Both the position numbers and the translations under genes were made by a program. From contig JAKAVQ010000001.1 of NCBI GenBank assembly GCA_021817245.1, positions 62,001-126,000 on the forward strand: a DNA stretch of 64,000 bases, written 5' to 3'. The notes under the pieces are model-generated. The model saw nothing but the letters and a program-made list of their open reading frames with translations. It was not told the origin of the DNA and did not search any database. Positions 1,131 to 47,932 of this stretch are shown one piece after another. Source of the stretch: Thermoplasmata archaeon. Lineage in GTDB: Archaea > Thermoplasmatota > Thermoplasmata > Lutacidiplasmatales > UBA184. Position 1 is the first letter of the stretch; each line of letters starts with the position of its first letter.

Positions 1131-1237
1131 TGGACCGGGCGAGATGCTCCGGCCCGGGGCGAGCGCTTGCCCCGGACCATTTGAACTCGCGACCTCTACC
1201 TTGCCAAGGTAGCGATCTTCCGCTGATCTACCGGCCC
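1131..1237 (-). tRNA. tRNA-Ala (anticodon GGC) interrupted by an intron in the T-loop
   Basis: The minus strand folds into a complete tRNA once a 35-base intron (1145-1179) is removed. The acceptor GGGCCGG pairs with CCGGTCC and includes the G3:U70 wobble pair that marks alanine tRNAs. The discriminator is A73 at 1131. The D-stem is GATC/GATC, the anticodon stem is CTACC/GGTAG with loop TTGGCAA (anticodon GGC), and the T-stem is GCGAG/CTCGC. Without splicing the T-arm cannot form. The mature tRNA is 72 bases with loop TTCAAAT. Only CC of the CCA end follows in the genome. A TATA box lies about 30 bases upstream. Confidence 0.92.
1145..1179 (-). other. tRNA intron at position 59/60 (T-loop) of tRNA-Ala
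   Basis: This 35-base intron interrupts the T-loop between A59 and U60. Its ends form a bulge-helix-bulge: the outer helix is the T-stem (GCGAG/CTCGC), a short central helix pairs U54-C56 with intron bases near its 3' end, the bulges are AAU and CAU, and a 10-bp inner helix is GGTCCGGGGC/GCCCCGGGCC. Exact cut sites are ambiguous by up to two bases because AT recurs at both ends. I placed them by analogy with the tRNA-His intron in this window. Confidence 0.82.
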
Positions 1238-47799: not shown

Positions 47800-47825
47800 T
47801 CGGCCGCGCTCCGTCAACCGCTGTG

Positions 47826-47932
47826 GCCGGGATGGGGTAGTTTGGCCTATCCTGGGGGACTGTGGATCCCTCGACCCGGGTTCAAAGCGACGCGGGGCCG
47901 CCCCCCGCGTCCTGAGATTCTCGGTCCCGGCC
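47826..47932 (+). tRNA. tRNA-His (anticodon GTG) interrupted by an intron in the T-loop
   Basis: The sequence folds into a full tRNA after a 32-base intron (47887-47918) is removed. The acceptor GCCGGGA pairs with TCCCGGC, G-1 is encoded at 47825, and the discriminator is C73; G-1 and C73 are the histidine identity signals. The anticodon stem is GGGGA/TCCCT with loop CTGTGGA (anticodon GTG). The T-stem CCGGG/CTCGG forms only when the intron is out, giving loop TTCAAAT. The 13:22 pair is T/T and the variable loop has four bases. CCA is not encoded. The HAD gene stop begins at the next base, 47933. Confidence 0.92.
47887..47918 (+). other. tRNA intron at position 59/60 (T-loop) of tRNA-His
   Basis: This 32-base intron sits between A59 and U60. 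The bulge-helix-bulge is near canonical: the outer helix is the T-stem, the central 4-bp helix pairs U54-A57 (UUCA) with intron UGAG, the bulges are AAG and AUU, and the inner helix is GACGCGGGG/CCCCGCGTC. Cutting after the second base of each bulge gives exactly a 7-base T-loop. Confidence 0.85.

Follow-up and report, generated by a model that had tools for sequence, protein, structure and literature searches.

Fifteen of the 46 tRNA genes that we found in the genome of a soil archaeon of the Thermoplasmata, about a third, carry an insert in the T-loop between tRNA positions 59 and 60. We interpret these inserts as archaeal BHB introns removed by the splicing endonuclease, a reading to which we assign a probability of roughly 0.92. 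The 15 genes represent 14 isoacceptors, and two other species have 59/60 introns in the same 14. The single splicing endonuclease (EndA) found in the genome belongs to a class often called narrow in specificity, and most introns of the family lack one or two of the pairs that the strict motif calls for.

Two genes of the T-loop-intron type, those for tRNA-His(GTG) and tRNA-Ala(GGC), lie in the window, by which we mean the whole stretch of 64,000 nt that was analyzed.

The introns of tRNA-His and tRNA-Ala

The earlier note had proposed that tRNA-His has an intron at the same T-loop position as tRNA-Ala, and direct reading of both genes confirms it. The shared design that the note described also holds, with the T-stem as outer helix and T-loop positions 54-57 paired with the end of the intron, and both genes fit one register. 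The features are as follows.

47826-47932, + strand: tRNA-His(GTG) gene, read directly; G-1 at 47825
47826..47886, + strand: tRNA-His exon 1, positions 1-59
47887..47918, + strand: tRNA-His 59/60 intron, 32 nt
47919..47932, + strand: tRNA-His exon 2, positions 60-73, with C73 at 47932
47826-47832 and 47925-47931, + strand: tRNA-His acceptor strands
47876-47880 with 47920-47924, + strand: tRNA-His T-stem, CCGGG with CUCGG
47881-47884, 47885-47886 and 47919, + strand: tRNA-His T-loop, respectively UUCA, A58 A59 and U60
47881-47884 with 47913-47916, + strand: tRNA-His central helix, UUCA with UGAG
47889-47897 with 47903-47911, + strand: tRNA-His inner helix, GACGCGGGG/CCCCGCGUC, 9 pairs
1180..1237, - strand: tRNA-Ala(GGC) exon 1, positions 1-59
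1145..1179, - strand: tRNA-Ala 59/60 intron, 35 nt, register as in tRNA-His
1131..1144, - strand: tRNA-Ala exon 2, positions 60-73

The T-loop of tRNA-His thus reads UUCAAA, then the 32-nt intron, then U. Its motif is near canonical, as had been suggested: all four central pairs form (one of them U.G), and both bulges are 3 nt long, the 5' bulge consisting of A, A and the first intron base G, and the 3' bulge of the intron bases A and U followed by U60. One C.C opposition is present at the base of the inner helix, beside the 5' bulge. The central helix of tRNA-Ala, UUCA/GGAG, has three of four pairs and an A57.G opposition.

Comparison among relatives indicates that the fold of the His intron is under selection. 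The exons are near-invariant, and the intron varies with compensation. Among 24 sequences of equal length, taken from 33 distinct T-loop-intron His sequences, six of the nine inner-helix pairs have changed on both sides. On each of five measures the real alignment scored above all 500 shuffles, a result to be read with the tool's own warning that related sequences can exceed shuffles, and all slid controls scored lower. Because this gene is the only tRNA-His gene found in the genome, its intron must be spliced for the tRNA to work.

Two programs place the 3' ends of these genes inside the introns: ARAGORN calls tRNA-His as 47827-47916, and the Rfam tRNA model calls tRNA-Ala as 1168-1237. Standard tRNA finders and annotation will misplace or miss such genes.

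tRNA genes of the genome

A search of the genome, which is 92.9% complete, with the Rfam tRNA model (E<=10) gave 44 matches, all of them readable as tRNAs, with His absent among them. Adding tRNA-His and tRNA-Leu(TAG) brings the total to 46. Introns at 59/60, 26-38 nt long, are present in the genes for Ala GGC, Asp, Glu CTC, Gly TCC, His, Lys TTT, Leu TAG, Asn (two genes), Gln CTG, Arg TCG, Arg TCT, Ser CGA, Ser GCT, and Ser GGA. Four genes have a 37/38 intron (Met, Tyr, Leu TAA, and Glu TTC) and five have a D-loop intron: both Arg GCG genes, a Met gene that is probably the initiator, Lys TTT, and Leu TAG (L035, L036, L037, L043, and L312). An outcome that the earlier note had set against its proposal, that the other tRNAs be intronless or only of the 37/38 type, is therefore realized only in part: the 37/38-only pattern fails, since 15 of 46 genes carry a 59/60 intron, yet 31 of the 46 have none at that site.

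The sole genes found for His, Asp, Asn, and Gly(TCC) are all of the T-loop-intron type. The two Asn genes lie near the ends of contigs C15 and C17 (L314 and L313), where their Met neighbors are similar and their T-loop introns differ. These near-duplicates may be strain copies or a duplication, and 14 isoacceptors is therefore the safer count. The Glu TTC and Gly TCC genes (L025, L039) were read by hand, and in both the usual U at position 33 is apparently replaced by C. Genes for tRNA-Pro and tRNA-Trp were not found in this genome with the Rfam model.

A motif built on the T-loop

The 14 introns of this genome that were compared together have an equal register, 7 nt to either side; the fifteenth, in Leu TAG, was read separately. 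We compared 94 distinct sequences, a set that includes one doubtful member (L204) and in which U54 to A58 are constant by demand of the parser. A59 and U60 are constant as well, and G lies opposite C56 in 91 sequences. Position 57 and its partner form A.G in 52 sequences, A-U in 25, G-C in 14, and other combinations in three, such that the partner is C when 57 is G (14/15) and G or U when 57 is A (77/79). The genes for tRNA-Asp provide an example, with UUCA/GGAG in one family member and UUCG/CGGA in the other five Asp genes listed. The last seven loop positions are mostly G, U, or C, followed by G, A/G, G/A, A, N, and U.

Four central pairs form in 37 of the 94 sequences, three in 55, and fewer in two; the central helices of the two Asn genes of this genome are weak, with two and three pairs. 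If the strict form is defined as four of four central pairs together with the first three inner pairs, 12 of 92 family sequences have it, 64 are one pair off, and 16 are two pairs off. A mismatch flanks the 5' bulge in 71 of the 92: in 52 it belongs to the central helix, in 17 (16 of them His) to the foot of the inner helix, and in two there is one on both sides. These mismatches in the family sequences look as if a 4x1 loop were preferred over a 3-nt bulge. Opposition of A to G is also seen in the 37/38 introns of Met and Leu TAA, and the enzyme therefore seems to accept A.G at both sites.

Removal of the introns restores a normal tRNA with a UUCRAAU loop and paired T-stem and acceptor. This predicted mature loop is that of 24 of the 29 distinct tRNAs of the genome that were resolved without a T-loop intron.

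The following pathway is suggested by these features. In the pre-tRNA, the T-stem would serve as the outer helix, and T-loop positions 54-57 (UUCR) would pair with bases near the 3' end of the intron. The 5' bulge would comprise A58, A59, and the first intron base, and the 3' bulge the last two intron bases and U60. EndA presumably cuts after A59 and before U60, and ligation would then restore the loop. The exon half of such a motif is the near-invariant T-loop, and a single intron 3' end (NGRRNN before U) should fit almost any tRNA. A 37/38 intron, by comparison, would have to match anticodon bases 34-35. In the 37/38 introns examined here the intron strand does follow the anticodon, as a review also describes for bases 34-35 (PMC4090602). 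Because the T-loop is constant and 37/38 introns depend on bases 34-35, T-loop introns would be portable in principle, and 59/60 could become the main site. A constant loop that supplies half of the motif would thus offer a reason for introns to settle there.

Distribution among relatives

To count such introns elsewhere we used R1, a covariance model that represents the T-arm together with its intron and was trained on 11 sequences, nine of them from this genome. Full-length MAFFT alignments and a first mini-intron alignment were left out of the models because 3' ends were misplaced. R1 recovers 12 of the 15 genes of its own genome, partly by construction, and misses both Asn genes and Arg TCG; only the matches to His, Leu TAG, and Lys are independent of training. 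All 12 matches, with E values up to 6e-4, are tRNA genes, and the next match stands at E 1.06. In relatives, matches were mostly counted, with few candidates per genome scored in large samples, and the counts, which include MAGs, are rough.

Across 61 genomes (E<=1), all 37 members of the genus, this genome included, have 5-16 matches; among the 24 genomes outside the genus, 12 have one to three and 12 have none. Across 300 genomes of the class (E<=0.1), each of the 62 family members listed has 4-13 matches, and 58 of the 238 others have one to six, family f25 having the highest numbers. Of the 180 class genomes that gave no R1 match, the 20 listed include no family member.

The two other species with 59/60 introns in the same 14 isoacceptors are represented by genomes G018 and G028. 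The former was parsed only at R1 matches and may exceed 14; three of its eight weaker matches (E 0.66 to 5.4) were fetched and none is a T-loop intron. The Gly TCC gene of G028 was read by eye (L386). G028 also has a Trp gene with a long 37/38 intron (L384, read by eye) and a Pro CGG gene (L376).

Among 36 relatives of the same genus that were searched, 30 have tRNA-His with a 59/60 intron of 29-32 nt. The other six, estimated to be 59-85% complete, gave no full-length His match, and none was seen to be intronless. Nineteen stretches were fetched from other families, and 16 contain a recognizable tRNA-His: 11 are intronless (L201 by eye), three have a 37/38 intron (two in f2, one in f15), one has a clear 59/60 intron (f16), and one is doubtful (f6). 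The doubtful case is the His gene of G055 (L204), whose T-loop reading leaves no central helix pairs. Other families also have 59/60 introns in further isoacceptors, Arg CCG, Ala CGC, and Leu TAA among them. The suggestion that T-loop introns have spread through the whole lineage is strongly supported by the counts in genus and family and by the 14 isoacceptors in three species.

In G038, a genome of the same order and another family, 13 isoacceptors have 59/60 introns. Twelve of these introns are only 13-15 nt long and mostly end in UGAAAA followed by U; that of Lys TTT has 26 nt and a UUCG/CGAA helix. The Leu TAA and Arg CCG genes of G038 (L417 and L419, the former read by eye) have three introns each, in the D-loop, at 37/38, and at 59/60, with the last being 13-14 nt. 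A second model, R2, was built for mini-introns, which R1 misses, and across 250 genomes it gave 11 matches in G038 and none to three elsewhere.

Eight of the nine isoacceptors first found in G038 are shared with the set of the genus under study (8/11 versus 1/20 among 31 resolved tRNAs; Fisher p = 1.7e-4). Glu CTC was brought in by R1 and not by Rfam, and leaving it out gives p = 4.2e-4; with four R2 finds added, the overlap is 9/12 versus 4/23 (35 tRNAs; p = 1.4e-3).

A single splicing endonuclease

Broad-specificity EndA had been expected in the earlier note, and it was not found. The genome has one EndA of 354 aa, a single natural gene with two fused PF01974 units, and a profile search at E<=10 gave no second PF01974 gene. 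With this protein as query, one place per genome was found in all 27 genomes that are at least 90% complete (in G042 as two adjoining pieces), a search that a very divergent subunit could escape. Neither a separate beta subunit nor a three-unit chain was found by the profile in this genome or by the protein query in relatives.

Alignment of unit 1 shows it to lack the Lys44 insertion of Aeropyrum pernix, and unit 2 is collinear with the EndAs of A. fulgidus and M. jannaschii. No CSL- or ASL-like loop is present, the latter judged from aligned ranges (epsilon2 aligns from its residue 165). The protein retains Tyr, His, and Lys, which we take to be the catalytic residues. The closest relative fetched (L046, 86% identical) has an AlphaFold model with a mean pLDDT of 93.6, whose best structural matches are the fused M. 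kandleri enzyme 5x89 (TM 0.87/0.91) and then A. fulgidus 2gjw (0.79/0.91). Collinearity extends from the 31 EndA proteins of 60% identity or more to 14 less similar ones from Thermoplasmata and allied groups; eight columns differ consistently between the two groups, two of them N-terminal, where most of the 14 are gapped. Relatives at 60-86% identity come from Thermoplasmata archaeon MAGs, among them AcS1-67 and UBA184, which are placed in Ca. Lutacidiplasmatales in the literature (PMC9287336). Similarity of EndA is the one basis on which we assign the window to that order.

According to one review, cleavage of relaxed motifs takes an (alpha-beta)2 or epsilon2 enzyme; it classes the EndAs of A. 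fulgidus and T. acidophilum as narrow and the M. kandleri enzyme as constrained broad (PMC6379350). Two further articles confine alpha4 and alpha2 enzymes to canonical motifs (PMC4033280) and state that the alpha2 EndA of H. volcanii requires the full motif (PMC7714728). According to another article, homodimers can cleave bulge-helix-loop motifs (PMC8707768), and the narrow-specificity rule is therefore not absolute. Reviews tie relaxed motifs at odd sites to EndAs with an extra specificity loop; the enzyme found in this lineage has none, and of 92 family introns 80 fall one or two pairs short of the strict motif.

One possible account, which we offer tentatively and consider less probable than not, is that a loopless, naturally fused two-unit EndA independently gained relaxed specificity and that the shared 14-intron set is kept by selection. 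Its substrates would include T-loop introns in which a mismatch opens the 5' bulge and, in the sister family, introns of 13 nt that nearly lack an inner helix. Selection might act through pre-tRNA quality control or through breaking of the tRNA 3' end as an integrase target.

Origin of the introns and alternative explanations

Within a genome, the interiors of introns from unlike isoacceptors barely exceed shuffles in similarity. The highest z in the genome under study is 3.8, and pairs with z>3 number five of 66 there (12 of the 15 introns; one of the pairs is Asn-Asn), one of 91 in G018 (14 introns), and none of 45 in G028 (10 of 14 introns). Mean z within a genome is 0.87, 0.47, and 0.53, respectively, and 1.3-2.4 for orthologous introns. 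This low similarity, together with the shared set of 14 isoacceptors, points to an old set that has been kept vertically. The set probably predates the genus, and in part the family, and would have been inherited since. Copying of one intron design, which the earlier note had raised, is not supported as a recent process, with interiors at most modestly similar within a genome; a founding spread or copying in a deep ancestor is possible. Recent large-scale transposition, in which a single T-loop intron would have been copied from tRNA gene to tRNA gene as is reported for Thermoproteales, is unlikely in our judgment. It would account for the uniform register and 3' end, but the T-loop itself dictates these shared ends. 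Two Arg mini-introns of G038 that differ at one of 13 bases also fit it, as do the five high-scoring pairs, which could instead reflect an old relation or the base composition of the helix strands. Against it stand the identity of the isoacceptor set in three species and the fact that introns resemble their orthologues more than their neighbors within a genome (the shuffle test covered this genome, G018, and G028).

The remaining alternatives concern how, or whether, the inserts are removed. A second, broad-specificity subunit that the search missed would agree with the stated enzyme requirement for relaxed motifs and could be hidden by the incompleteness of the assembly; the lone PF01974 gene, and the single EndA place in every one of the 27 more complete genomes, make it quite improbable. 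That the inserted genes are pseudogenes, or variants with a long T-loop that is never spliced, is hardly credible: for His, Asp, Asn, and Gly(TCC) no other genes were found, and the His exons are conserved while the intron changes with compensation. Spliced BHB introns at 59/60 thus remain our preferred reading of the inserts.

Comparison with known systems

Introns at 59/60 are known from other archaea, and those reported here agree with them in position, BHB logic, and size range (11-129 nt in the review; Yoshihisa 2014, PMC4090602). That review names Crenarchaeota and Nanoarchaeota as rich sources and puts intron-bearing tRNA genes of Euryarchaeota near 8%, a picture from which the present case differs in that 59/60 is the main intron site in a Thermoplasmata family (PMC4090602). 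Among Euryarchaeota, a few are known to have multiple introns (PMC4033280). A 217-genome survey was trained in part on non-canonical Euryarchaeota introns (PMC8450103), and such introns are therefore not new to that group. Our literature search, which covered the main texts of papers outside subscription journals, found no account of T-loop introns in Thermoplasmata, and the word "intron" is absent from the main text of the paper that places AcS1-67 and UBA184 in Ca. Lutacidiplasmatales (PMC9287336). In the Asgard Atabeyarchaeia and Freyarchaeia, 92-95% of tRNA genes have an intron; these are likewise soil archaea with many introns at non-canonical sites, and they belong to a different lineage (PMC11291895).

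The Thermoproteales, which have (alpha-beta)2 enzymes, share with this lineage an abundance of introns and, in G038, the presence of several per gene. The near-identical introns in unlike tRNAs that would mark transposition are not seen in this genome, G018, or G028. Sugahara in 2008 and Fujishima in 2010 reportedly described multiple and transposed tRNA introns in Thermoproteales. The M. kandleri EndA, like the enzyme described here, is not known to have a specificity loop. Its subunit fusion in 5x89 was, by the entry title, engineered for the crystal, whereas ours is one natural gene. The alpha'2 EndA of Archaeoglobus (2gjw) is the other close structural match, and ours, with its two fused PF01974 units and predicted fold, may be of the dimeric alpha'2 type. 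Against this background the 59/60 site is already familiar, whereas the lineage, the dominance of the T-loop, and the loopless enzyme seem to be new. With its many sampled genomes, the lineage provides a natural test of what EndA requires of its substrates.
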